In this document: piece after piece, positions 4,918 through 29,042 of the stretch
How positions within the stretch are numbered: position 1 is the first letter of the stretch
How the letters are laid out: each line of letters opens with the position of its first letter
Virus record (IMG/VR): IMGVR_UViG_3300031741_000011
Location: 1-30,516 of that record
DNA length: 30,516 bases
Direction: 5' to 3' (one strand)
From: a virus
Translations under genes and position numbers: made by a program
The notes under the pieces: model-generated
Told to the model about the DNA's origin: nothing
Databases searched by the model: none
Seen by the model: the letters and a program-made list of their open reading frames with translations, nothing else

Positions 4918-5220
4918 ATGAGGACCATCCTCCTTACTCTATCCTTCCTTCTTGTCTCAGCCCTAGGCTCCGTAGGTCTCTTGTCAGCTCAGGAGGACCA
5001 AGTTGATCCTTGCATCCCTACTACTGCCTTTATTGAGAACATAGACGATAACGGTTACCAAGTAATAGCAGAGTACTACTCCCCAGAAGGTATCCTCGTA
5101 GTTATCTTGGACCCTCAGGAGGACAAATGGGCCATCTTCTTGGCTAATCCCACAGGTATCTCCTGCTTCCTCATGAGTGGCGAAGGGTATCATCAAGAAC
5201 ATGCTGGAGAACTTCTATGA
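4918..5220 (+). CDS. Small exported (periplasmic) protein with two cysteines
   Basis: This 100-aa protein has a clear Sec signal peptide: MRT, a hydrophobic core to about residue 20, and a likely cleavage after LLSAQ (about residue 25). The mature part has exactly two cysteines (C32 and C83), compatible with one disulfide, and ends in a G-I-S-C-F-x-x-S-G-E-G-Y motif. From memory, small exported proteins of alphaproteobacteria carry a similar G-x-x-C-x-x-x-S-G-E ending; this is one hint to the host. Its function is unknown. Candidates are superinfection exclusion or envelope modification. Its stop overlaps the start of the first fibre gene (ATGA), so the two are translationally coupled. Confidence 0.7.
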   Translation: MRTILLTLSFLLVSALGSVGLLSAQEDQVDPCIPTTAFIENIDDNGYQVIAEYYSPEGILVVILDPQEDKWAIFLANPTGISCFLMSGEGYHQEHAGELL

Positions 5221-6176
5221 CTAAACGCCCTACAATAACCTCAGTGGCTGATGTTCCTAATAACGCTGGGGCTATCAATACTAACCTAGAGGCACTCAGG
5301 GATGGCTTCGATAATACTCTATCCTTAGACGGTAGTACCCCTAATGCTATGGGGGCAGACCTAGACCTTAACTCCAATGACGTCCTTAACGGAGCCACCA
5401 TTAACGCAGCTAACGTCGTAGTGGCTGGTATTAACTTAACTGACCAAGTAGCTTTAGCTAAGGCCTCAGCAGCGGCAGCGTTAGTAAGCGAGGGTCTAGC
5501 AGATGCTGATGCTACACAGACTGCTGCTGATCGTATCCAAGTAGCTGCTGACCTAGTCTCGACAAACCAAGATACACTAGACACCGCAGCCGACCTAGTT
5601 CTAACCAACCAAGATACTATAGATACTGCTGCTGATGTACTGGAAAGTGAAGACAGCAATCTTGAAGCAAACGACTGGGCTAACCGCGCAGAAGACTCTC
5701 TTACTCGGACATTCCTCAATGGTGTTGGAACGAATAGAGCTGCTGGTAATTACTCCACACTTCATTACGAAGCTAAAACCAGAGCAGATGAAATACTAAC
5801 AAATGCAGATGCAATTGCCACTGCTGCTGATGTGATCCTCGCAGAGGCCTCTAAGGCTGCTGCTGCTATTAGTGAAACAAACGCTGCTGCGTCATACGAC
5901 AGCTTCGACGATAGGTACCTCGGCGCTAAGGCGACTGCACCTACATTAGACAATGACGGCGCTGCAATCCTTACTGGCGCTTTGTACTTCGATACTGTAT
6001 CCGATGATATGCAGGTGTGGGATTCAGCCGCTTGGGTAGCTGCTTATGTTTCCCTCTCCGGTGCGCTACTCGCGACGAACAACCTGTCGGACTTAACTAA
6101 CGCGTCTACTGCAAGGATAGCCCTCGACGTAGATCAAGCTGGTACTGCAATCGCAATGTCAATCGCTCTAGGATAG
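5217..6176 (+). CDS. Tail fibre protein 1 (virion-anchor domain and coiled repeats)
   Basis: This 319-aa fibre protein has an N-terminal domain (about 1-73) containing INTNLEALRDGFDNTLSLDG and DLDLNSNDVLNGA. It is clearly homologous to the N-terminus of the fibre gene at 10368 and is taken as the tail-anchoring part. Residues about 75-220 are Ala/Asp-rich and helical, with an exact-period 14-aa repeat at 110-137 (AADLVSTNQDTLDT, then AADLVLTNQDTIDT), typical of a trimeric coiled shaft. The C-terminal part holds a LYFDTVSDDMQVWD motif common in phage fibres, then NNLSDL. No obvious receptor-binding tip follows, so it may act as an adaptor for the proteins encoded next. The codon and CTAG pattern changes near 5640, halfway through the gene. 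Confidence 0.78.
   Translation: MTKRPTITSVADVPNNAGAINTNLEALRDGFDNTLSLDGSTPNAMGADLDLNSNDVLNGATINAANVVVAGINLTDQVALAKASAAAALVSEGLADADATQTAADRIQVAADLVSTNQDTLDTAADLVLTNQDTIDTAADVLESEDSNLEANDWANRAEDSLTRTFLNGVGTNRAAGNYSTLHYEAKTRADEILTNADAIATAADVILAEASKAAAAISETNAAASYDSFDDRYLGAKATAPTLDNDGAAILTGALYFDTVSDDMQVWDSAAWVAAYVSLSGALLATNNLSDLTNASTARIALDVDQAGTAIAMSIALG
5544..5639 (+). repeat. 42-bp in-frame repeat in fibre 1
   Basis: Units at 5544-5585 and 5586-5627, with a partial third to 5639, encode two successive 14-residue helical repeats (AADLV-TNQDT-DT). Synonymous differences between the units indicate an old duplication kept at protein level. Confidence 0.7.
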
Positions 6177-6184
6177 GATAACAA

Positions 6185-6496
6185 ATGGCAACCTTCACGT
6201 TTAAGAACTACACCTCGGCGGCAGTCGGCACAGGTGAAACCACTATTATGACAGTGGCGGCATCCACTACCTCAACCTTAATCGGACTGACCGTGGCGAA
6301 TGTTACCGCAACACAGATTGCAGTCGATGTTAAACTCAACGCGGTCCACATTGTTAAAGGGGTTCCCATCCCGGCTAATAGTGCAATCAGCGTCTTGGCA
6401 GGTAAGATTGTTGCTGAGACTACTGATACGATCAAGGTGACAAGTGACACGGCAAGTTCTGGTGATGTTATTCTGTCAGTGATGGAGGAAACCTAA
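6185..6496 (+). CDS. Small beta-rich structural protein of fibre locus
   Basis: This is a 103-aa protein made almost wholly of beta-strand text (Thr, Ala, Val), with IPANSAISVLAGKIV and a terminal DVILSVMEE. I know similar about-100-residue proteins beside fibre genes in marine phages, without an assigned job; they are probably virion or baseplate components that cap or decorate a fibre. It lacks a signal peptide and cysteines. The ribosome site is TAGGATAGGAT, nine bases after the stop of fibre 1. Base composition is of the cassette type (few CTAG, more GCG and ACG codons). Confidence 0.55.
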   Translation: MATFTFKNYTSAAVGTGETTIMTVAASTTSTLIGLTVANVTATQIAVDVKLNAVHIVKGVPIPANSAISVLAGKIVAETTDTIKVTSDTASSGDVILSVMEET

Positions 6497-6497
6497 G

Positions 6498-7616
6498 ATG
6501 GGTGGTTACATAGGCTCACGGGTAGTCGTCCCACAGGTTGACGGCTACACCAAGGCGGAAACCCAGACTCTGGTTGGCAACGCAACTAAATCAAACGCTG
6601 AAGTTAAAACAGCCTACGAGGCTAATGCTGACACCAATGAGTTCTCCGATGCCGAGGTGTCTAAGCTAGCTGGCATTGCCGCAGGAGCTACAGCAGGTGT
6701 GGCAGTTGATTATTCCGAAGACATAACCCGGCTTTATTTGAACGTGGCGGAAGCTGCCGCGTCCCGCTTTAACATGGCTGATGGCATTCTGGACGGATAC
6801 AACGGCAGCAGTGATGTCGATCTAGTGTCAAGCACGGATATGGCACACTGGAGTGATTCTTTTTTACCGACGAAGGGCGCTCTATTGTCGTCTAAATCTA
6901 TGACATCTAATGTTTTACCTAGTCCATTTGTAGCTTCTGCCAGTAACGGAGCCGCCACGGCGTGGGAAGTACACGACGGCACGACTGTCTACGAGTCTAC
7001 TGGCGCACATCCCTCTTGGCACAAAATAGATATAGGGTCTAACCAAACAGTCGGCTCTTACGGCATGGCGTCCGGGGTGAACACCTCTGTCGGCTTTAAC
7101 TATACCGCGTGGACTTTCGAGGGGTCTACCGACGATAGCACATGGGTCGAACTAGACTCTAGGACAGGTTTCACTGATTGGGGGGCTGTGGTGGGAGCAG
7201 AAATCCAATTCAAATGCACTTCCGGTAGTTACCGTTACTACCGTTGGAATCCTACCGCTGGTGGCACATACTCGTCCGGCTTGCACGTATATGGCTTGAA
7301 TACGACCCCAGCCACACTGATTTCCGAACCCTTCATTGCAGATGTTGTTCCGGCTACAGCCCGTGTGGGTGTCTTGGTCGATGGAGCGTTCACGATTAAT
7401 ACCACACTAATTGCCTCGGTAAGCCGCGATGGTGGCACGACGTTCACCGCAGCGACACTGGTGCTAATAGATACTATGTCGGGTGGGTACACCTACTACG
7501 AGGACGCAGCAGTGGACATATCAGCCCAGCCTTCCGGCACGTCTATGGTGTACAAGGTGTATTCCAACTCAGGAACCTTTTCAAGCATTTCAGCAGCTCT
7601 TTTACAGTGGGGATAA
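6498..7616 (+). CDS. Fibre/adhesin with F5/8-type (discoidin-like) domain
   Basis: This 372-aa protein opens with GGYIGSR, like the GYIG opening of the gene at 8939. A short shaft follows containing a fibre-type motif (NEFSDAEVSKLAGIAAGATAG, read in pieces at about 47-68). Residues about 141-267 resemble an F5/8 type C (discoidin) carbohydrate-binding module: S-x-G-A-A-T-A-W-E, SWHKIDIG, WTFEGSTDDSTWVELD, YRYYRW. A further beta domain fills about 270-372, with SRDGGTTFTAA near 316-326. Sugar or glycan binding on the host surface is the likely role. It has a good ribosome site (GGAGGAA) and starts two bases after the previous stop. Confidence 0.65.
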   Translation: MGGYIGSRVVVPQVDGYTKAETQTLVGNATKSNAEVKTAYEANADTNEFSDAEVSKLAGIAAGATAGVAVDYSEDITRLYLNVAEAAASRFNMADGILDGYNGSSDVDLVSSTDMAHWSDSFLPTKGALLSSKSMTSNVLPSPFVASASNGAATAWEVHDGTTVYESTGAHPSWHKIDIGSNQTVGSYGMASGVNTSVGFNYTAWTFEGSTDDSTWVELDSRTGFTDWGAVVGAEIQFKCTSGSYRYYRWNPTAGGTYSSGLHVYGLNTTPATLISEPFIADVVPATARVGVLVDGAFTINTTLIASVSRDGGTTFTAATLVLIDTMSGGYTYYEDAAVDISAQPSGTSMVYKVYSNSGTFSSISAALLQWG

Positions 7617-7619
7617 ACC

Positions 7620-7811
7620 ATGACCGCGCGTAGACTTCTAGACACCAAGACCCGGCAAGCAAAACTCGGCGCAGAAACCGACACCACAATTACGAATGAC
7701 CTGCTCGACGAACTCGAAAGCCTTCTGCCTGCTGACAACCCTGCTGTAATGAAGCGTAAAGCCCTTCGTGACTTACCTACTAAGGTAACCTCTCCAAATG
7801 TACCAAGATAA
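7620..7811 (+). CDS. Short tail-fibre-assembly-like protein (reduced)
   Basis: This is a 63-aa protein. Its C-terminus (KRKALRDLPTKVTSPNVPR, residues 45-63) matches the ending of phage tail-fibre assembly chaperones (Y/R-R-x-A-L-R-D-L-P ... F-P). It aligns by eye with YRKALRDLP at 105-113 of the protein at 9929. The usual preceding E-R-D-x-L-L-A-x-x-D-W segment is missing, so it is a shortened version or a degenerate copy. It sits directly after the discoidin-type adhesin gene, as expected for a dedicated chaperone. Confidence 0.5.
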   Translation: MTARRLLDTKTRQAKLGAETDTTITNDLLDELESLLPADNPAVMKRKALRDLPTKVTSPNVPR

Positions 7812-7829
7812 ATTAAAGGAGTGTTTTGA

Positions 7830-8612
7830 ATGACCAGAGCATCTGACCTCGCAAGGTATAACGCCGCGTTGACCGTTGGGTCACTGACCTCTACTGGTAT
7901 TGACGACAACGCCACTTCTACAGCCATTACGATTGATGCGTCTGAGAATGTTGGGATTGGAAACGCTAGCCCTAGTCAGGCACTTGACGTAACAGGAAGC
8001 ATTGCAGTCTCCGGTACAGTGGATGGTCGTGACGTAGCAACTGATGGTACTAAACTAGACGGTGTTGCTGTAGGTGCTACGGCAGGTGGTGGTGCAACGG
8101 AGTTCATCGCAACGATTGATTTGTCCAGCACTGCAACAGCGGCTTTCACGGGGTTTGATAGTGGGTCGTACGACGATTATGTCTTTAAGTTCTTAAATGT
8201 TATCCTTGCGACCGACTCGCAGTATCTTGAAGTGCATACATCGTCTAACGGCGGTGCGAGTTACGACACTGGAAGTAACTACGACTACAGGTATATGCAG
8301 CTATCCGCGACTTCCATTTCAGGCTGGCAAGGTAATACGCAAACAAGGCTATTGATGGCGGGAGCTATAGCTAATATTGAAGGGGGTCTGAGCGGTACTT
8401 TAAACGTTCACGGGGCGCATCTCGCGCAAAGAACGTATACCACCAGCCACGTCAGCGCGGCATATGCAGGCGCGGTCCACCATTTGCTGGCGCAGTATGT
8501 AGGAGGAGGGCGACATAGAACCGCTGCTGATGTGGATGCAATAAGGTTTAGGTCATCTTCGGGTAACATGGCGTCAGGAACAATCACAATGTATGGAATG
8601 AAAAATGCCTAG
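7830..8612 (+). CDS. Tail fibre / receptor-binding protein 2
   Basis: This 260-aa protein starts with a short N-terminal segment and an ENVGIGNASPSQALDVTGS motif (residues 39-57) common in phage fibres. A TVDGRDVATDGTKLDG linker (63-78) follows, shared with the gene at 8939. Residues about 94-260 form a beta-rich tip (IDLSSTATAAFTGFDSGSYD, then AIRFRSSSGNMASGTITMYG), an ending I know from many marine phage fibres as a receptor-binding domain. The ribosome site AAAGGAG is eight bases from the ATG. The last eight bases overlap the start of the next gene, an assembly-type protein. Confidence 0.68.
   Translation: MTRASDLARYNAALTVGSLTSTGIDDNATSTAITIDASENVGIGNASPSQALDVTGSIAVSGTVDGRDVATDGTKLDGVAVGATAGGGATEFIATIDLSSTATAAFTGFDSGSYDDYVFKFLNVILATDSQYLEVHTSSNGGASYDTGSNYDYRYMQLSATSISGWQGNTQTRLLMAGAIANIEGGLSGTLNVHGAHLAQRTYTTSHVSAAYAGAVHHLLAQYVGGGRHRTAADVDAIRFRSSSGNMASGTITMYGMKNA
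8013..8050 (+). repeat. 38-bp direct repeat, copy 1 (second at 9260-9297)
   Basis: 8013-8050 and 9260-9297 differ at one base in 38 (GGATGGTCGTGAC versus GGATGGCCGTGAC). Both encode GTVDGRDVATDGT. Flanking codons for the same peptide differ at third positions, so the identical block is shorter than the shared protein motif. It is a plausible recombination joint for exchanging fibre tips. Confidence 0.85.
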
Positions 8613-8919
8613 ATATAGCGCAGTAGCTGGTAAGCGCGGCGAGGCCGTTAAGCGGGTTCAATTCACCGCAGCACAGGAAATAGAACGGGACGCTGAGGAA
8701 GCACACGCGGTTTCAGCAGAGGTTGTTGGTGGACAGGTGCGGGACGATAGAGATGGTAGGTTGGTGAATGAAGTAGATACTGCCGCAGGTAATATCTTAC
8801 GTTGGTCGGCCCTCACTGAGGAAAAGAAAGCTGCTTGGTCAGAGTACCGTCTAGAACTTCTTGATGTACCTCAGCAGGCTGGTTTCCCAACAAAAGTAAC
8901 TTGGCCGATAAAGCCATGA
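8605..8919 (+). CDS. Tail-fibre-assembly-type protein 2
   Basis: This 104-aa protein has FTAAQEIERDAEEAHA at residues 20-35 and ends with YRLELLDVPQQAGFPTKVTW (81-100) then PIKP. The W-x-x-Y-R-x-x-L-x-x-x-P-x-x-x-G-F-P-x-x-V-x-W-P ending is the hallmark of phage tail-fibre assembly chaperones. The family's E-R-D-x-L-L-x-x-x-D-W helix is replaced by a different text, and the RWSALTEEKKAAW part supplies the Trp. It overlaps the preceding fibre gene by eight bases, so fibre and chaperone are probably made in linked amounts. Confidence 0.6.
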   Translation: MPRYSAVAGKRGEAVKRVQFTAAQEIERDAEEAHAVSAEVVGGQVRDDRDGRLVNEVDTAAGNILRWSALTEEKKAAWSEYRLELLDVPQQAGFPTKVTWPIKP

Positions 8920-8938
8920 TGACTAAGGAGACAATGTA

Positions 8939-9919
8939 ATGTCAGGTTATATCGGCCCCGACCCCATCCCACAGGCGGTGATGCACGATGAGGTATTCAC
9001 GGCCACGTCTGCCCAAACAACATTTGCCACCGCAGGTTACACTGTCGGCTATATTCAAGTGTATCAGAACGGAGTGTTGCTAACAAATACCTCTGACTAC
9101 ACAGCCACTAACGGCTCAGACGTTGTGCTTGGCACTGGGGCTACCGCCTCAGATACTATCCGGGTTATCTCCTTTGTACCGTTCGAGGTGGTGAATCTGA
9201 TTAATACGGCTAACCAGACGTTTACTGGGACGACTACAGTTGATATTCTTGCGGTATCAGGTACAGTGGATGGCCGTGACGTAGCAACTGATGGTACGAA
9301 GTTGGATGGTATTGCCACCTCTGCTGATTATGTCGCAGGGGACGTTGCGGCCAAGGGCGACCTGATGGCTGGCACAGCGGTAGATACCCTTGGTGTTCTG
9401 ACAGTTGGAGCCAATGACACTGTTCTGACAGCGGATAGTGCCGAAACGTCTGGGATGAAATGGGCTGCTGCTGCTAGCGGTGGACCGACTATAGGCACAG
9501 AACAAGCCACCACATCTGGCACGGCCATTGATTTTACGGGCGTACCAGCAGGAACTACACGAATTGATATTGCGTTTGATGGGGTCTCATTGAGCGATAC
9601 AGACAATTTTCTGGTTCAGTTGGGAGACGCCGGAGGCTTTGAGACTACGGGATATGCCGCTAATTCAGACTCAATAGCCACCACATCTGGGTTTAACATA
9701 GCAAACATCTGGGCTGGTTCCACTACGACCGGGCCTATGCGGTTGACCCACATGGGCGGCAACTCTTGGGTTTCAAATCATCAAGTTTACCAATGGACTA
9801 CTAGATACGTAGACGGGGCTGGTGCAAAAACTCTTTCGGGTGAACTTACCCAAATTAGAGTAACTAGGGATGGCACCAACACGTTCGACGCTGGTGTCGT
9901 CAATATAATCTATTCGTGA
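8939..9919 (+). CDS. Tail fibre / receptor-binding protein 3
   Basis: This 326-aa protein begins GYIGPDPIPQAV followed by FTATSAQTTFATAGYTVGYI and VYQNGVLLTN (to about residue 66), a frequent N-terminal module of marine phage fibres. A GTVDGRDVATDGTKLDG linker (108-124) matches the one at 7830. Residues about 180-326 are a beta-rich tip with FTGVPAGTTRIDIAFDGVSL and FLVQLGDAGGFETTGY, another well-known fibre-tip type, ending VVNIIYS. The ribosome site AAGGAG is spaced nine bases. It is followed by a full-length assembly-type chaperone. By gene context it is an alternative or additional adhesin. Confidence 0.7.
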   Translation: MSGYIGPDPIPQAVMHDEVFTATSAQTTFATAGYTVGYIQVYQNGVLLTNTSDYTATNGSDVVLGTGATASDTIRVISFVPFEVVNLINTANQTFTGTTTVDILAVSGTVDGRDVATDGTKLDGIATSADYVAGDVAAKGDLMAGTAVDTLGVLTVGANDTVLTADSAETSGMKWAAAASGGPTIGTEQATTSGTAIDFTGVPAGTTRIDIAFDGVSLSDTDNFLVQLGDAGGFETTGYAANSDSIATTSGFNIANIWAGSTTTGPMRLTHMGGNSWVSNHQVYQWTTRYVDGAGAKTLSGELTQIRVTRDGTNTFDAGVVNIIYS

Positions 9920-9928
9920 GGGATTGAA

Positions 9929-10312
9929 ATGTTCGTAGCAATAATGAAAACAGAGAGCGGCAGGGTTGCTAAAGTCCAAGACCCGTTTGACACTCTGGCA
10001 GATGCTCAGGCGCATGTTGACGCTCATAGCAGCAGTTATCCAAATGCCTTTGCGATAGCCAAGCCGAGTGGGAAGTTAGCGGATTGGTTGGTCGCATCTG
10101 ACCGTTCCGTTTCCGTTTCCACGCTTCCTACAGACCCGGCTGTTGTTAGATCAGAACGTGACGAGTTACTTGCAGCTACCGACTGGGAGGCGATCCGCGC
10201 ACTTGAGGCTCTGTATCTAGCCGACACACCGCTTGGTATCTACCGCAAGGCCCTGCGTGACCTACCTGCTTCGGCAGATTTCCCTGACACGCCAATGCCA
10301 ACTAGGCAGTAA
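9929..10312 (+). CDS. Tail-fibre assembly chaperone-like protein 3 (complete form)
   Basis: This 127-aa protein is the clearest of the three copies. It has the helix RSERDELLAATDWEAIRALE (74-93) and the ending YRKALRDLPASADFPDTP (105-122), as in the phage tail assembly chaperone family. Residues 1-65 form a small separate domain (FVAIMKTESGRV, DTLADAQAHVDAH). It is expected to help trimerise or attach the preceding fibre and may not be in the virion. GAGGGA lies seven bases ahead of the ATG. Confidence 0.68.
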   Translation: MFVAIMKTESGRVAKVQDPFDTLADAQAHVDAHSSSYPNAFAIAKPSGKLADWLVASDRSVSVSTLPTDPAVVRSERDELLAATDWEAIRALEALYLADTPLGIYRKALRDLPASADFPDTPMPTRQ

Positions 10313-10367: not shown

Positions 10368-11378
10368 ATGGCCACTAAGTTATCTACACTTATCTCTATC
10401 GTCACTGGCTACTTCTCCAGTACCCAACTGAATAGTAACTTCACTGCTATCGCAGATGAGTTCGATAATACTTTGTCTCGTGATGGTACCGCTCCTAATA
10501 CTATGGAGGCAGACTTTGACTTGAACTCTAATGATCTCCTCAATGGTGCTAATGTCCATACGGATAACCTATACATAGCAGGGACTAAGACTGTCTCTAC
10601 TTCTGCTACCCCTACATGGAAAGGCCCTTGGGTAACCACTACTGTCTATGCCCTAGACGATGTGGTGAGTGACTCAGGCAGCTCCTACATCTGTATCGTA
10701 GCTCACACAGGGGGAACCTTCGCTACTGACCTAGCGGCTCTTAAGTGGGCGGCCATGGCAACCAAAGGTGCCACAGGTGCTGGTACTGGTGACATGCTAA
10801 TCGCCAACAACCTCTCTGATGTAGCCTCAGTAGCTACCGCTAAGGTCAACCTAGGAGTAGAGGTTGGTGTAGACGTACAAGCCTATGGGGCTATCCTAGA
10901 CGACCTCTCAGGTCTCACACAAGCAACAGATAAGATTCCCTACTTCACCTCAGGCTCAGCAGCAGGTGTCCTCGACCTCCTAGACGAAGACACTATGTCC
11001 TCTGATAGCGCTACTGGTGTCCCTACCCAACAGTCAAGTAAGGCTTATGCTGACACTACCTTGGCAGCAGCAGTAGCCACCATCGCAGCTAAGCCTCAGA
11101 TCGTAGCTTGGGTAAACTTCAATGGTACAGGCACACCGACTGTTAACGCTAGTTACAACATAACAAGTATAACAGATAATGGTACTGGCGACTGGACCAT
11201 CAATTTCACGACCAACATATCTGATGCGAATTACGCGGTTTCATTCGCAATAAACAAGACTGACACATCAACATCATTCGTCAGAACTCGCGCGGTTGGA
11301 TCATTGCGCATGGGTATTCAGACGACTGGTGTTGGCGCAGCAGACGCCTCAGACATCAGCGTAGTCATCGTAAGGTAA
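10368..11378 (+). CDS. Tail fibre protein 4 (anchor, collar and receptor-binding tip)
   Basis: In this 336-aa protein, residues about 18-65 (LNSNFTAIADEFDNTLSRDG, DFDLNSNDLLNGA) repeat the anchor domain of fibre 1. A WKGPWVTTTVYALDDVV-type stretch and GSSYICIVAHTGGTFATD (about 82-125) follow, a small carbohydrate-binding-like module often seen in fibres, then NNLSDVASVATAKVNLGV and a shaft. Residues about 243-336 (IVAWVNFNGTGTPTVNASYN, DISVVIV) are a common fibre-tip domain. Because it alone here joins a clear anchor to a clear tip, it may be the main fibre. The stop is 9 bases before the large-terminase start. Confidence 0.78.
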   Translation: MATKLSTLISIVTGYFSSTQLNSNFTAIADEFDNTLSRDGTAPNTMEADFDLNSNDLLNGANVHTDNLYIAGTKTVSTSATPTWKGPWVTTTVYALDDVVSDSGSSYICIVAHTGGTFATDLAALKWAAMATKGATGAGTGDMLIANNLSDVASVATAKVNLGVEVGVDVQAYGAILDDLSGLTQATDKIPYFTSGSAAGVLDLLDEDTMSSDSATGVPTQQSSKAYADTTLAAAVATIAAKPQIVAWVNFNGTGTPTVNASYNITSITDNGTGDWTINFTTNISDANYAVSFAINKTDTSTSFVRTRAVGSLRMGIQTTGVGAADASDISVVIVR

Positions 11379-11387
11379 TAACTTAAC

Positions 11388-12926
11388 GTGGTAATGGAAG
11401 TTCAAATAAGAGAAGCTGCTGAGGCAGACTTAGCTACCTTCATTAAGTTGGTAGCTCCCGGCAGAGTCTTAGGCGCAGTACACGAAGAGCTTCTTAGGTG
11501 GTGGACAAGGGATGAAGCTAAGGATCATCAGCTCTGTCTCCTCCCACGTGACCACGGTAAGTCAGCTATGGTTGCCTACCGAGTAGCTTGGGAACTAACT
11601 AAGGACCCTACCCTAAGAGTTCTTTACATCAGTGCTACCTCAGGCTTAGCTGAGAAACAACTAGGTTTTATTAAGACTATCTTCGAGAGTAAGATTCACC
11701 GTAGGTACTGGCCTCTCCACATTAAGAAGGAAGAGGGAAGACGCTCTAGGTGGACTAACAAGGAGATTGAACTTGACCACCCTAAGCGTAAGGAAGAACA
11801 GATACGTGATCCGTCTATCATGGTTGCTGGCCTCACCACTAATATTGCTGGCCTCCACTTTGACATCGCAGTACTTGATGATGTAGTAGTATACGATAAT
11901 GCTTACACCCTAGAAGGACGCAAGAGGGTAGAGACACAGTACTCCTTCCTCGCTTCCATTGAAGGTACAGGCTCACAGGAGTGGGTAGTAGGAACTAGGT
12001 ACCACCCGAAGGACCTCTACAACACCATGAAGGAAATGCTAGAGCCTCACTTCATGCCTGACGGTACTATAGACGGGGAAGAGCCTATCTATGAAATCTA
12101 CGAGCGAGTAGTAGAGGACAGTGGAGATGGCACAGGGGAGTTCCTCTGGCCTAGGCAACAGAGACCAGATGGTAAGTGGTTTGGCTTTGACGCGAGGGAA
12201 CTAGCGCGTAAGAAGGCTAAGTACCTAGACCGTACTCAGTTCAGAGCACAGTACTACAACAACCCTACTGACCCTGACTCTCGTCCTATTGACTATGACA
12301 AGTTCCAGTACTACGAGAGGAGCCTCCTCAATCAGGACAATGGTCACTGGTTCTACAACGGACGTAAGCTCAACCTTATTGCTTCTATCGACTTCGCCTA
12401 CAGCACTAGAGTACGAGCTGACTTCACGGCCCTAGTGGTAGTAGGAGCAGACGCTGACAATAACCTTTATGTCTTAGACATCACAAGGTTCAAGACCTCA
12501 GACATCTCTGAGTACTTTAAGCACATCCTAGCTTCAGTCAACAAGTGGGACTACCGTAAGCTAAGGGCTGAGACATCAGTAGCACAGAAGGCTATTGTAC
12601 AGTCCCTCAAGTACGACTACATAGCCACTCACGGCTTAGCCCTAGCGGTAGACGAAGTAAAGCCTAACAGGCATCAGGGGAGCAAGGAGGAGCGTATGGA
12701 GGCTATCTTAATACCTCGCTACTCTAACCTCCAAGTTTACCACTACAAAGGGGGTAACTGTCAGTTGCTTGAAGAAGAACTAGTTACCAATAATCCTCAG
12801 CATGATGACATCAAAGATGCTCTAGCTACAGCCATTGAAGGTATAGTTAAACCAATGCAAACATTCCGTAGACGCAATAACTCTAATGTCATTGAGTTCA
12901 GCTCCCGGTTCGGAGGACGTGTATAG
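11388..12926 (+). CDS. terL: Terminase large subunit (packaging ATPase-nuclease)
   Basis: The 512-aa length is normal. The ATPase domain has Walker A LLPRDHGKSA (51-60), Walker B DIAVLDDVV (159-167) and a coupling motif GTRYHP (202-207). The nuclease domain starts near 328 with ASIDFAYSTRVRADF (catalytic Asp in ASIDF), and the late acidic motif is PQHDDIKDALA. The enzyme pumps DNA into the prohead through the portal and cuts concatemers. Start: GTG at 11388 is chosen because TAAGG lies 12 bases upstream; ATG at 11394 would be further from it. The gene overlaps the portal start by one base (TAGTG). Confidence 0.95.
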   Translation: MVMEVQIREAAEADLATFIKLVAPGRVLGAVHEELLRWWTRDEAKDHQLCLLPRDHGKSAMVAYRVAWELTKDPTLRVLYISATSGLAEKQLGFIKTIFESKIHRRYWPLHIKKEEGRRSRWTNKEIELDHPKRKEEQIRDPSIMVAGLTTNIAGLHFDIAVLDDVVVYDNAYTLEGRKRVETQYSFLASIEGTGSQEWVVGTRYHPKDLYNTMKEMLEPHFMPDGTIDGEEPIYEIYERVVEDSGDGTGEFLWPRQQRPDGKWFGFDARELARKKAKYLDRTQFRAQYYNNPTDPDSRPIDYDKFQYYERSLLNQDNGHWFYNGRKLNLIASIDFAYSTRVRADFTALVVVGADADNNLYVLDITRFKTSDISEYFKHILASVNKWDYRKLRAETSVAQKAIVQSLKYDYIATHGLALAVDEVKPNRHQGSKEERMEAILIPRYSNLQVYHYKGGNCQLLEEELVTNNPQHDDIKDALATAIEGIVKPMQTFRRRNNSNVIEFSSRFGGRV

Positions 12927-25000: not shown

Positions 25001-26532
25001 TGGACAAGATGTCTGCTGATCCTATCTCTGCACTGCGTGGCTATGTCTTTGACAGTAAGTTAGGCCTCTTCGCACCCGGACAGTACTTCGTTCAGGCTAG
25101 CCAAGTGGTCAATATTGCTGGCTTAGGTGACGGTATCTCTGGATTCATCGGTACTGCTGCTTACGCGCCTACTCGGTTCGCTCTCCTTAATGGTAATCCT
25201 ACGGTTATACGGGAGATAGCAGAGAGAATTGCTCCTATCATGGGCTTAACCCCAGATCAGTACGTTGAGATGGTAGGATTACTCAAGTCTTCTGGCAGAG
25301 ACATCGTTGGCATCTCCGTAGCTGAATTAGGTGACGCTGCTGCTGGTGCTTCTCCTGCTCTAAGGGGTTTAAGAGAGAAGGGACGCTTCTTCTTCAACGA
25401 AGGGGAGCTTGTAGCTCGTATCTCAGCGCATAACACTGCTTACTTAGAGTTCACTAAGAAGTTCCCCGGTAAACCAGCTTTGTCTCAAGAAGGACGTAGG
25501 TGGATTGCCCATAGACAGGATGTATTAACTCAAGCTATGACTCACGCCTCTCGTGGTGTAGGACAAGACCTTCCCGGCCTCCAGTTCCTTACCTTCTCGT
25601 GGCGTATGAGTGAAGCTCTCTTCGCGGGTACCATAAAGCAAGCTACTGGAGGCAAAGTAGCCAAAGGGGCTAAGTCTGTACTTACGGGCAAGGAGAAACT
25701 TAAGCTTACCTCCACCTTGCTGGCTACTTTTGGCCTAGCTGGTCTACCTATTGGTGGTGTAGGCTTCGATGTGATAGAGGATAACTACGGTACTGTAGTT
25801 CCTGACTCCTTACACACTGCTGTACGATACGGCCTCTTAGATGTGGCTATTAGTTCTCTTATTCAGTCTGATACTGCCTTCTCCTCAAGAGTTGCTTGGG
25901 GCGAGGGACTCTTTGATGTCTTTATGAACCTAAGCTCAGGCAACTTCGCTGAAGTCGCTGGTGGTCCTAGCTATGATCTAGTTAAGGATGGCTTAACTGT
26001 GGTCGCTGGCCTAGCTAGAGGCTTAACCTCAGGTAACGTAGACCTAGCTAAAGTATCCTTCAAGGATATGGCTCGTATGACCACTACAGGCAACAGGGTC
26101 TTTGATGCTTATACTGCTTGGACCGTAGGGGAGTATGTTAGCCGTAAGGGGTCTGTAGTCTCGGATAGCTTGACTAAAGGTGACGCTGTGGCCAGAGCTT
26201 TCGGCATCCCTATCAAAGAACTAGAAGCGGTATGGGCAAAGGGCTTCAATGACCGTTTAACTAAGGACTACCTTACTGGTGTTGCTGACCGACACAACAA
26301 ACTAGGCAAGGTCGTTGAGGATTTAATCAGAGATGGGGAGTATGATAGGGCGGATGAGATAAATCGTATCATTACCCTAGAGTTTCTCTCTAAGACACCT
26401 AGTCAACAGAAGATACTTAAGAGATACTACAGGAAGAATGGATTGTACAGCCAACAAGATACTATTATTGCACAAGAAGCTTTGAAGATTAGCGGAAGTG
26501 GTTTGGCTGAAAGAATGAAGGGGAATAACTAA
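22039..26532 (+). CDS. Giant internal virion / ejection protein, 1497 aa
   Basis: This is the largest gene in the window. The protein is mainly helical, acidic at the N-terminus and basic later. Hydrophobic helices lie near residues 1223-1245 (STLLATFGLAGLPIGGVGFD) and in the following few hundred residues, which could insert in the host membrane. The C-terminus (WAKGFNDRLTKDYLTGV, YYRKNGLYS, ending ERMKGNN) is typical of T7 gp16-like ejection proteins of marine phages. I see no lytic transglycosylase motif here; that activity is in the next gene. It has a strong ribosome site (AAGGAGG) and overlaps the next start by one base. Like gp15/gp16 it is expected in the head core and ejected with DNA. 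Confidence 0.72.
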   Translation: MTGFNPLSEEQVNGNAEPKEEFNPLLEEGDLVTPSRTEKQKDRSANLYSSFSTRSPAEIRGIINAGTEWRLEEEAQTVITENNRVAVEGAVSDRVTDETLAEMYLNVSQTPVYDRITDPSLTATLLTSGDVMLKEYARRSIERTIILVDSIESSMSKASERDFATDLAWTDSVLSQLPFLSSFQAKKRNELAQEIMSHISNPAITNEEYGTLVAESLKTAADQGLLTDENRFFIQDLVAIISEGDEAYQSQFALALLDVVVLDASLAVRGGKVVKTIGKAGWILGADLSLDVARVAGKVKRQEKLVDSILADARLSDTPETSAVTLGDHTESLSVPSVNRSEYLSAPAQEAKRDFENNNTAFNELISINFGQALDEGIVEGLRAQFIDIRKRASAESGTRQFIDFDVSVDGLGNVFFQEVIGTSTGKYFKSLAQAKVRAKALGGEVRQVADGQFAVLRSKAAPLNTKIEDVGDLEDLFFFKATDDQELGLGFWAKFGSPLVQTTDRLNAILKQGEAARSTVKTTVLRNHNKLLKSLKKVEVREVGAIFDSMLNGRLAKVTDKTDMTVEQFNTEFFRLHRKNPNTSQQAFFVQTQELNKLDYFLRADPLFKQATDAKETMLYIGDDAFRAVKTETIPADRLVYDIDKKKLVQPSEVPDGAPIYQARTEVFRGLGGESVEYAFARTPTTRRVYHTDVLNYNPGGHREYLKNSIKFYLKQTVETALSGTGTVKTKPRTFMGVRTEQEAKEVVRQWDNIVDALAVRVGETSTDEAFLRGATALKGDSALDALVLSNNAWNRNIQSFSDLLDFSKDAGMKLNRKVDFAADGKPLSQDPKGFLSGINPDEDVAISFRNSRNGKRQDSALLGYGGDVNPTLDPLDSLERGFSSSVAIRSEMEYSLAAINGLIKQAMEKKVLLNPSEIKGLPITAKLKGMKIDDSTEVGKKLALEQKRVEFRLRKKSAFAKAWDQKVAELGDFFYGKDFKWTAKQVDKMSADPISALRGYVFDSKLGLFAPGQYFVQASQVVNIAGLGDGISGFIGTAAYAPTRFALLNGNPTVIREIAERIAPIMGLTPDQYVEMVGLLKSSGRDIVGISVAELGDAAAGASPALRGLREKGRFFFNEGELVARISAHNTAYLEFTKKFPGKPALSQEGRRWIAHRQDVLTQAMTHASRGVGQDLPGLQFLTFSWRMSEALFAGTIKQATGGKVAKGAKSVLTGKEKLKLTSTLLATFGLAGLPIGGVGFDVIEDNYGTVVPDSLHTAVRYGLLDVAISSLIQSDTAFSSRVAWGEGLFDVFMNLSSGNFAEVAGGPSYDLVKDGLTVVAGLARGLTSGNVDLAKVSFKDMARMTTTGNRVFDAYTAWTVGEYVSRKGSVVSDSLTKGDAVARAFGIPIKELEAVWAKGFNDRLTKDYLTGVADRHNKLGKVVEDLIRDGEYDRADEINRIITLEFLSKTPSQQKILKRYYRKNGLYSQQDTIIAQEALKISGSGLAERMKGNN

Positions 26533-29042
26533 TGGCACAGATTGATATAGGCGACTCAGGGACAGCGGTTGAACCTGTCCAGAGTCCAGTGAGTAGTGAT
26601 AGTATTACTCAATCCCTCTTCGGAAGGAATGGGTTGTTTGATACCTCAGGTAGGACAACAGCTAAGCCTAGTGAAGGCGATAAGTTCCAAGCTCGTGTCA
26701 AGAAGTTTGAAGGAGATAGGGGAATAAGCCCCACTGCTTCTAACTACGAAGACATGTGGAGTAAGAACATTACCGCGTACATAGCTAAGAATCCACAGGA
26801 TGCTGAGCGAGCAGGTAAGTTTTTCACTACTATCACTGGTCGAGAAGTTAACACCCCTGAGCAAAGGCTTCTGAGTGAACAAGATACTTGGTACGCCACT
26901 GACCCCGAAGGTCAACGCCAACTGAAGATGATTCAGAATACTGTTGGGGACGACCCCGGCAGAGTAGTCGAGGAGCAGAGTAGGCGTTATGCAGCTCACG
27001 TAGGCGAGGTTGCTGATCTTCAAGCTGCCACCCGCGCTGCTGATACTGCTATTAAAGCTAATAGTACCGCTGCTGAGGTATCCAAAGGGTACTGGGAGAA
27101 CGCTAAGACTGCTTCTACACGCAAAGTGGATGATATTGCTGAACTAGCCCGTACTGCTCTCATCCAAGCTGCTGGTTCACCTACGGGTACAGCTACAATT
27201 GCTGGAGTAGAGGTTAAACTCCAAGATGTTGTTGGATACCTGAAGTCCGAGAGGGCTAGGCTTAAAGGAGAAGTAGTCACTAGTGGGCAGAACCAGATAA
27301 ACAATAGCCTTGGGTATGGTAACCTAAGAGAGCCTAGTGATGACTGGGAAGTTGACGTATTCAAGCTATACGACAGCATAACACAGATCGCTGAGGAAAA
27401 CTTCGGTACTCCTAAGAAGATTGAATCCTTCTTAAGGGGAGAGAACTCTGTTGACTTAATCAGGGCTGTGAACGAACAGGGTTTAGGGTGGACCTTAGAG
27501 GTTAACCGTCTTTTCCCTGAGGAAATAGCTAGGGACCTCTTGTCTCAGTCGGGAATCAAAGAAGCAGTGGCCTCTTTGGGTAAAGTTCTCAAGGCTGAGT
27601 CCGTAGGTGAGGACGCTTCCTCTGAGGACATTAAGAACGCCGCAACTGTGCTCCTCCAGACTGGTACTAAGTCAACTACAGGGGAGCAAGTGGAGAAGAC
27701 TACAGCAGAGGGTATCAGGCTGCACCTTAAGGCGACTTCAGGTCCTATCCAACTGGAGACATTCGAGAAGTCTATCCAGAAGCAGCTTTCTCTCTTCTCT
27801 AAGATGAGCGACTCCGCTAGGTCTGACACCATAGTCAACCTACAGGAGGACCTAAAGCGTACTCGTACTGCTATTGAACGTAAAGCCTTTCGTAGCGGAT
27901 TCAACACTACATTTAGTGATGATGGTTCAGTAGACTTTACCGTGATTGACCAGAGTGGTATTCCGGGCACTATCGGAGGACAGAAGACCTCCAAGGTCCT
28001 AGGGGACCTGATGAATAATCATCAGATGAAGCTCTATAACCGGAAGATTGATGTCTACTCCAACGATAAGTTTGGTAAGGAAATCTTAGACTTTGATTCC
28101 AGTATCACGCAAGCTAGGGTGACAGATGTTTCCTTTACCCTTCCAGAAGAGGTGGCCGCAGATACAGACTTTACTGATGCCGTCACCGCTGTCTCTAATA
28201 ACGTAGACATCAGGGAGGAGTGGTTATACCGAGCTATTGACTTTGAAACTGCTGGCTCTTGGAGTACTAGTATTAAGAACCCTAGGTCCTCAGCCACTGG
28301 TCTCATTCAGTTTATGGGAGATACGGCTAAAAATTTAGGCACTACTACTGATGCCCTGTCTAAGATGACTAGAGCACAGCAGATGCAATGGGTAGAGAAG
28401 TACTTATCTCCTTTCAAAGGACGTATGAAGAACTTTGCCGATGTCTACTTCGCTATTCACTGGCCTCTAGCTATAGGCAGGGATGACTCCTTCGTCATGT
28501 ACTCGACTACCTTCAACAAGGATGCCTACGTCGCTAATAGAGAATTTGATACTAATGGTGACGGCACAGTGACAAGGGGGGAAACAATAGCTGATGTCCT
28601 ACGTCGCAGTGGAACAGGTAAGGCGACTACTGCCGGTCCTCGTCTCACTACAGAGGAGGCTACAGTACCTTCAAAGACGGCTGAACTACAAGGACGTGGT
28701 ATCAGTGGGTTCGAGGGACCTCCAGCACCCTCTGGTGGTGCTCCTATTACTCCTTCTCCTTCACTAGATAGCTCTAAGGTGCGGACGTACAAGGAGATAC
28801 TAGAGGAAGCAGGGATGGGACGTAAGGAAGAGTCTCTCCCCGGTGACAGAGGTCTCATTAGGGCCTCTAACGCCACTATCTTTGATAAGGACATGATGAG
28901 GCTACTCCAAAGGTTCGGCTTGGACCCTAATGAAGTCTTCCAGTTCAATAGTGAGGCTGAACTACAAGCTGCTATTGACTCAGGCCTAGTACAGGCAGGA
29001 GATAAGGTAATGGTGGGCGACCAAGTAGGGGAGGCTGAGTAA
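26532..29042 (+). CDS. Internal virion protein with lytic transglycosylase domain and EF-hand-like loop
   Basis: In this 836-aa protein, residues 1-560 are mainly helical. Residues about 565-660 are a lysozyme-like SLT domain: the catalytic Glu is E572 in DFETAGSW, followed by NPRSSATGLIQFM and TAKNLGTT. It would cut peptidoglycan during DNA entry. Just behind it, residues 673-684 (DTNGDGTVTRGE) are a textbook EF-hand calcium loop (D-x-N-x-D-x-T-x-T-x-x-E). A Pro/Ser-rich linker and a C-terminal domain (LLQRFGLDPNEVFQFNSEAE) follow. TAATG couples it to the 1497-aa protein before it and to the next gene. In T7 the transglycosylase is at the start of gp16; here it is on a separate protein, near its C-terminus. 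Confidence 0.82.
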   Translation: MAQIDIGDSGTAVEPVQSPVSSDSITQSLFGRNGLFDTSGRTTAKPSEGDKFQARVKKFEGDRGISPTASNYEDMWSKNITAYIAKNPQDAERAGKFFTTITGREVNTPEQRLLSEQDTWYATDPEGQRQLKMIQNTVGDDPGRVVEEQSRRYAAHVGEVADLQAATRAADTAIKANSTAAEVSKGYWENAKTASTRKVDDIAELARTALIQAAGSPTGTATIAGVEVKLQDVVGYLKSERARLKGEVVTSGQNQINNSLGYGNLREPSDDWEVDVFKLYDSITQIAEENFGTPKKIESFLRGENSVDLIRAVNEQGLGWTLEVNRLFPEEIARDLLSQSGIKEAVASLGKVLKAESVGEDASSEDIKNAATVLLQTGTKSTTGEQVEKTTAEGIRLHLKATSGPIQLETFEKSIQKQLSLFSKMSDSARSDTIVNLQEDLKRTRTAIERKAFRSGFNTTFSDDGSVDFTVIDQSGIPGTIGGQKTSKVLGDLMNNHQMKLYNRKIDVYSNDKFGKEILDFDSSITQARVTDVSFTLPEEVAADTDFTDAVTAVSNNVDIREEWLYRAIDFETAGSWSTSIKNPRSSATGLIQFMGDTAKNLGTTTDALSKMTRAQQMQWVEKYLSPFKGRMKNFADVYFAIHWPLAIGRDDSFVMYSTTFNKDAYVANREFDTNGDGTVTRGETIADVLRRSGTGKATTAGPRLTTEEATVPSKTAELQGRGISGFEGPPAPSGGAPITPSPSLDSSKVRTYKEILEEAGMGRKEESLPGDRGLIRASNATIFDKDMMRLLQRFGLDPNEVFQFNSEAELQAAIDSGLVQAGDKVMVGDQVGEAE

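Follow-up and report, generated by a model that had tools for sequence, protein, structure and literature searches.

A stack of three adhesin and helper gene pairs in a Cobavirinae-like podovirus contig and its possible place in a modular adhesion apparatus

The stretch of DNA analysed here, called the window, is the whole of a 30,516-base (30.5 kb) linear virus contig. Its large terminase shares 61-71% identity with the terminases of the Cobavirinae SIO1, P12053L, ICBM1, ICBM2, CRP-4, CRP-5, and T5S1, and the genes 3' of the terminase (portal, capsid, tail tube proteins, GNAT, and internal virion proteins) are arranged as in SIO1 and the ICBM phages. Judged by its terminase and by the order of its virion genes, the window comes from a Cobavirinae-like (Zobellviridae) marine podovirus, of which it represents a fragment. 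A variable host-recognition region lies 5' of the terminase, and it holds a stack of three adhesin genes (genes are named here by their first coordinate: 6498, 7830, and 8939), each with a small gene directly behind it. All six open reading frames are on the + strand, where a sequence-only reading of the window had placed them. The count of three adhesins given in that reading holds for the stack, but the region contains more fibre-like genes, with 5217 and 10368 flanking the stack. The features of the module are as follows.

5217..6176, + strand: anchor-bearing tail fibre 1 (319 aa); its N-terminal ∼70 aa are common to the Cobavirinae fibres examined; PHROG tail fibre matches
6185..6496, + strand: protein of 103 aa, function unknown, between anchor fibre 5217 and the stack; matches phrog_26609 and phrog_1276 (unknown function)
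6498..7616, + strand: adhesin 1 (372 aa); MGGYIG adapter, EANADTNEFSDAEVSKLAGI linker, F5/8-type-C-like domain, and a C-terminal domain of its own; tail protein PHROGs
7620..7811, + strand: reduced APC 1 (63 aa); only the conserved C-terminal PF16778-like domain remains, its tryptophans gone
7830..8612, + strand: adhesin 2 (260 aa); MTRASDLAR adapter, linker, and beta-sandwich tip (88-260)
8002..8068, + strand: 67-nt repeat, copy 1; SGTVDGRDVATDGTKLDG linker of adhesin 2; 85% identical to 9249-9315
8605..8919, + strand: APC 2 (104 aa), canonical PF16778 member
8939..9919, + strand: adhesin 3 (326 aa); MSGYIG adapter domain, linker, and tip (∼190-325) homologous to the adhesin 2 tip
9249..9315, + strand: 67-nt repeat, copy 2; the adhesin 3 version of that linker, a linker met again across many viral stretches
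9929..10312, + strand: APC 3 (127 aa), PF16778 member
10368..11378, + strand: anchor-bearing tail fibre 2 (336 aa); CBM_5_12-like segment; adjoins the terminase
11388..12926, + strand: large terminase, the 3' boundary of the module; phrog_38, E 4e-82; 65-71% to SIO1, ICBM1, P12053L, and T5S1

Directly 5' of anchor fibre 5217 lies a 100-aa protein with a secretion-signal-like start (4918-5220), which has only a weak PHROG match of unknown function. Elsewhere in the window, amid the internal virion genes, residues ∼531-698 of an 836-aa protein (26532-29042) match 'baseplate hub' and peptidase PHROGs.

The three adhesins are assembled from different parts. Their N-terminal adapters differ; the MTRASDLAR and MSGYIG N-termini have counterparts in unrelated phages, and MGGYIG starts like the MSGYIG type. 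The linkers are very widespread among viral stretches, with the EANADTNEFSDAEVSKLAGI linker of adhesin 1 present in 115 confirmed ones, and the 67-nt repeat within the linkers of adhesins 2 and 3 is a plausible recombination site. Two tip types are present in the stack. One belongs to 7830 and 8939, whose tip families proved homologous by hhalign (P 88.8%, E 2.5e-6), and the end of adhesin 1 is different. We considered whether adhesin 3 arose by recent duplication of adhesin 2 and rejected this, since the two tips are too divergent (16% identical by profile alignment), each having relatives at ∼45% elsewhere.

The small genes begin between -8 and +9 nt from the ends of their adhesin genes, and each stands directly after a tail fibre gene, the position that goes with PF16778. 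The proposal that a homologous small protein lies behind each adhesin was borne out, although by profile search only 8605 (E 1.5e-13, 50.8 bits) and 9929 (E 6.4e-11, 42.4 bits) score above the Pfam cut-off of 26.6 for PF16778 'phage tail assembly chaperone', and 7620 has no Pfam match. Homology of 7620 to 9929 was detected by alignment (score 75; the highest of 2000 shuffles reached 46) and by phmmer (E about 2e-4), and 7620 was the best non-seed match (E 0.0077) of an HMM built without it; an hhalign comparison of 7620 with the APC profile is not independent, because that profile includes 7620. We regard 7620 as a divergent relative of the family and not as a member. The sequence-only reading had taken 9929 as full-length and 8605 as altered, and this order has to be reversed, since 8605 is the canonical protein and 9929 the divergent one. 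The LRDLP/LLDVP ... FP ... WP ending attributed to all three is complete only in 8605 (LLDVP..FP..WP), with 9929 ending in FPDTPMP and 7620 in SPNVPR. The description of 7620 as reduced was correct: only the conserved C-terminal domain is left, in which the R..D....R.L..LP frame is kept, and the tryptophans and the whole variable N-half are gone. Its predicted structure is of low confidence (pLDDT 62, pTM 0.29), and a search of viral contigs returned no relatives. From its alignment, 7620 is probably a decaying copy or a minimal one, stripped of the variable half. Across 41 rows, the APC alignment is highly variable. Among solved structures, PDB 2kz6 is related in sequence to 8605 by profile (E 2.9e-16), and is named only 'uncharacterized protein'.

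The pairs differ in how well relatives agree with them. The tip of adhesin 2 was modelled with pLDDT mostly 70-90, except at 151-180, and the model is similar to lectins and GH32 C-terminal domains (Z 7-9), a likeness that may reflect only the common beta-sandwich arrangement; Foldseek of adhesin 2 against the PDB gave nothing below E 0.001. Where the next gene of a relative could be read, tips of the 7830 type almost always have an APC behind them, and these APCs are mostly of the 'VNG' type, alignable to 8605 over its full length. Most relatives in this survey were found by an APC query, which biases the result towards APC presence; the least biased case is locus L124, found via the adhesin, where a relative of the tip (45%) also has an APC next. 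The claim that each adhesin brings its own chaperone is corroborated for 7830/8605, the sole pair in the window concordant with its relatives, but not for the stack as a whole. Tips of the 8939 type, with relatives in Pelagibacter, Rhizobium, and Rhodobacter phages, are followed elsewhere by a different APC type (L037-L046) or by no APC (L012, L025, L044, and L045). No relatives of 9929 were found by search in viral contigs, its N-half has no detected relatives, and only its C-terminal domain matches phages. Judged by these relatives, pairing is not strict and 8939/9929 is uncorroborated. In adhesin 1, a discoidin-like segment resembles PF00754 (E 6e-5, 23.6 bits, below the Pfam cut-off of 28.2), and the sole relative found for its tip, in L265, has no APC directly after it; its partner 7620 lacks the variable half.

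Tip and helper were then compared across phages. In a comparison of 50 non-redundant adhesin-APC pairs, the more similar two tips were, the more similar were their APC N-halves (r=0.65, 0/2000 permutations), with no such relation to the adapter (r=0.006); the conserved C-terminal 60 aa of the APC followed the tip more weakly (r 0.37). A first independent locus set held only 9 adhesin-APC pairs and had no power. In a second set of 78 loci, comprising 41 pairs, the N-half correlated with the tip at r=0.71 and with the adapter at r 0.39, and N-halves were similar in 69% of pairs sharing a tip on different adapters, compared with 7% of pairs in which both differed. In these two locus sets, the variable N-half of the helper tracks the tip far better than the adapter. 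Since tip and N-half are adjacent on the DNA, plain linkage could give part or all of this correlation. A direct case is found in the closely related phages L051 and L053, where the tip and APC of L051 cassette 2 are those of L053 cassette 1, on another adapter. The shared block is 95% identical in DNA over 905 bases, with the APC 100% identical over 101 aa, whereas the APCs in the same position of the two phages are 57% identical, and both the tip and the APC of L053 cassette 2 are different. To judge from these alignments, tip and APC have moved between adapters as one block in these phages. Together, these comparisons suggest a tendency for fibre tip and helper to be inherited jointly across phages as one swappable unit, and, with the three adapters differing, they uphold the earlier view that the genes form a stack of cassettes and not a single fibre. 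When bacterial genomes were scanned with one APC, a single weak locus came up.

The three-pair stack is not new, being annotated already in isolated relatives. The 2019 study of the ICBM phages (PMC6775973) reported three tail assembly chaperones alongside two tail fibres, noted that the fibre region is variable, and described a fibre apparatus that is not as simple as in T7. Lentibacter phage vB_LenP_ICBM2 (MF431616, Veravirus, Cobavirinae) resembles the window in having an anchor fibre and then three fibre-like genes, each with an annotated chaperone, with the terminase next, but its adapters and tips are others, its three chaperones are full length (134-141 aa), and no second anchor fibre precedes the terminase. 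Lentibacter phage vB_LenP_ICBM1 (MF431617, Siovirus) likewise has an anchor fibre followed by adhesin-chaperone pairs in the same place, but it has two pairs and no reduced chaperone. Stacks of three are uncommon here: in the first locus set, three APCs were seen only in ICBM2, L073, and the window itself, and in no locus of the later set of 78; both counts are lower bounds, as some loci are incomplete. Relatives with a single fibre, T5S1 and P12053L, also exist. In T5S1 (L290 7936-10272), the named relative closest by terminase, a single anchor-bearing fibre of 778 aa lies beside the spanin gene, a place different from that of the stack.

Other known systems share the gene arrangement. Alteromonas phages V22 and A5 carry a tail fibre and chaperone module common to unrelated phages, in which the gp27 chaperone of V22 was experimentally proven and is essential for V22 fibre function (PMC7289586, PMC10579305). 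As in the window, the small chaperone gene follows the fibre gene, but there is a single pair and the chaperone is of the DUF4376 type. By homology to gp27, the APCs described here are not V22-type (DUF4376) chaperones (hhalign probability 0.6%), and V22 gp27 matches PF14301 and not PF16778. Mu, with its fibre and Tfa, and T4, with its fibre and gp38, also place the helper gene directly 3' of the fibre gene (PMC7289586); the Tfa and gp38 families gave no match among the Pfam results for the window. We found no paper under the PF16778 name or accession, nor any experiment demonstrating that proteins of this family are chaperones, and the putative chaperone role of PF16778 proteins comes from annotation, analogy, and gene position.

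The flanking fibres bear on how the three adhesins may be attached. The proteins 5217 and 10368 are homologous (E 6e-18) and have a tail-anchor-like N-terminus in common. Fibre 5217 matches the fibres of ICBM1, ICBM2, P12053L, and SIO1 in segments at 43-63%, and 10368 and its positional counterpart beside the terminase of locus L003 are 67% identical over 181 aa; the carbohydrate-binding-module (CBM_5_12)-like segment of 10368 matches PF02839 below cut-off (E 5.5e-5). The ∼70-aa N-terminal domain occurs also in fibres of ICBM1, ICBM2, P12053L, SIO1, T5S1, and several environmental relatives, and from its position and conservation is likely to be the tail anchor. Locus L030 also has two anchor-bearing proteins. 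A stand-alone anchor-domain gene of ∼97-100 aa is found in CRP-4 (L122 1710-2003), L012 (2576-2869), and L020 (5639-5941); the existence of such a gene suggests that in those cases the fibre may be assembled from separate subunits.

Within the module, the anchor domain is confined to 5217 and 10368, and is absent from all three cassette adhesins. Because no adhesin carries the Cobavirinae anchor, a compound and perhaps branched appendage seems likelier than three independent fibres, and the parallel adhesins of the sequence-only reading become doubtful. Our best reading, which we hold slightly more probable than its negation, is that the stack encodes part of a modular compound adhesion apparatus, built of tip and helper cassettes, that would serve as the host-recognition module of a Cobavirinae-like podovirus. 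Two observations speak against it: T5S1 and P12053L have a single fibre, and tips of the 8939 type occur elsewhere with other helpers or with none. Three parallel fibres, with each adhesin trimer on its own virion site and bound to its own receptor, would agree with the three different adapters, the two tip types, and the separate small gene behind each adhesin. Besides the missing anchor, however, the adapters are generic starts that occur also in unrelated phages, and we consider this arrangement rather unlikely.

The small proteins might act differently from transient chaperones, remaining on the virion as accessory adhesins bound to the tip. Such proteins have been described for Mu (Tfa) and S16 (gp38) (PMC7289586), and a variable N-half that follows the tip is compatible with this role, but the small proteins showed no similarity to receptor-binding proteins and their conserved part is a short tryptophan-containing domain, which makes this alternative unlikely. 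It is still less probable that the stack consists mostly of relics, with one functional adhesin and the others, together with the reduced 7620, decaying remnants of past exchange. Such decay could explain the loss of the N-half and tryptophans in 7620, and single-fibre relatives exist, but the six frames are intact and closely packed, sequences resembling ribosome sites lie 5' of 6498, 7830, 8939, and 9929 (weaker at 7620 and 8605), and isolated phages also have stacks. Receptor switching, a possibility raised by the sequence-only reading and considered here as phase variation or alternative adhesin expression, gained no supporting point and is very improbable. All genes are on one strand and the inverted repeats between cassettes are only 16-23 nt long and 74-94% complementary, and switching by inversion was rejected; terminator-like sites on the + strand of the stack are weak and inside genes.

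In the compound, tip-and-helper apparatus that we favour, the shared N-terminal domain would anchor the flanking fibres 5217 and 10368 to the short tail, and the three adhesins would be joined by their adapters to these fibres or elsewhere on the virion, making the appendage compound and possibly branched. Each small protein would aid trimerisation and folding of the tip encoded just before it, and the unit of exchange would be the tip with its small gene, with crossovers in the widespread linkers and within the conserved domain of the helper. A more specific version, which we put forward tentatively and with less confidence, is a plug-in appendage, in which adapters are fixed and specific to a position, tip and helper cassettes are interchangeable, and the variable half of the PF16778 protein recognises the tip. 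The adapter order MAITLDG, MSKISL, and then MSTxxVD, seen in L117, L121, L071, and L073 with a helper behind most of these adhesins, is shared by the podoviruses ICBM1/ICBM2 and by L071/L073, which are phages of another type and have a different anchor. Docking of each adapter at a fixed site would lead one to expect such an order. This agreement could be chance (∼1 in 6, from two independent examples with three adapters), and the adapters of the window are of other types.

If cassettes are indeed inherited as units across marine phages, host recognition in this group, which is widespread, could be changed by swapping one short block of DNA. The variable half of the helper may then predict the tip that it serves, and what is now the annotation 'tail assembly chaperone' would become a hypothesis of specificity that can be tested.
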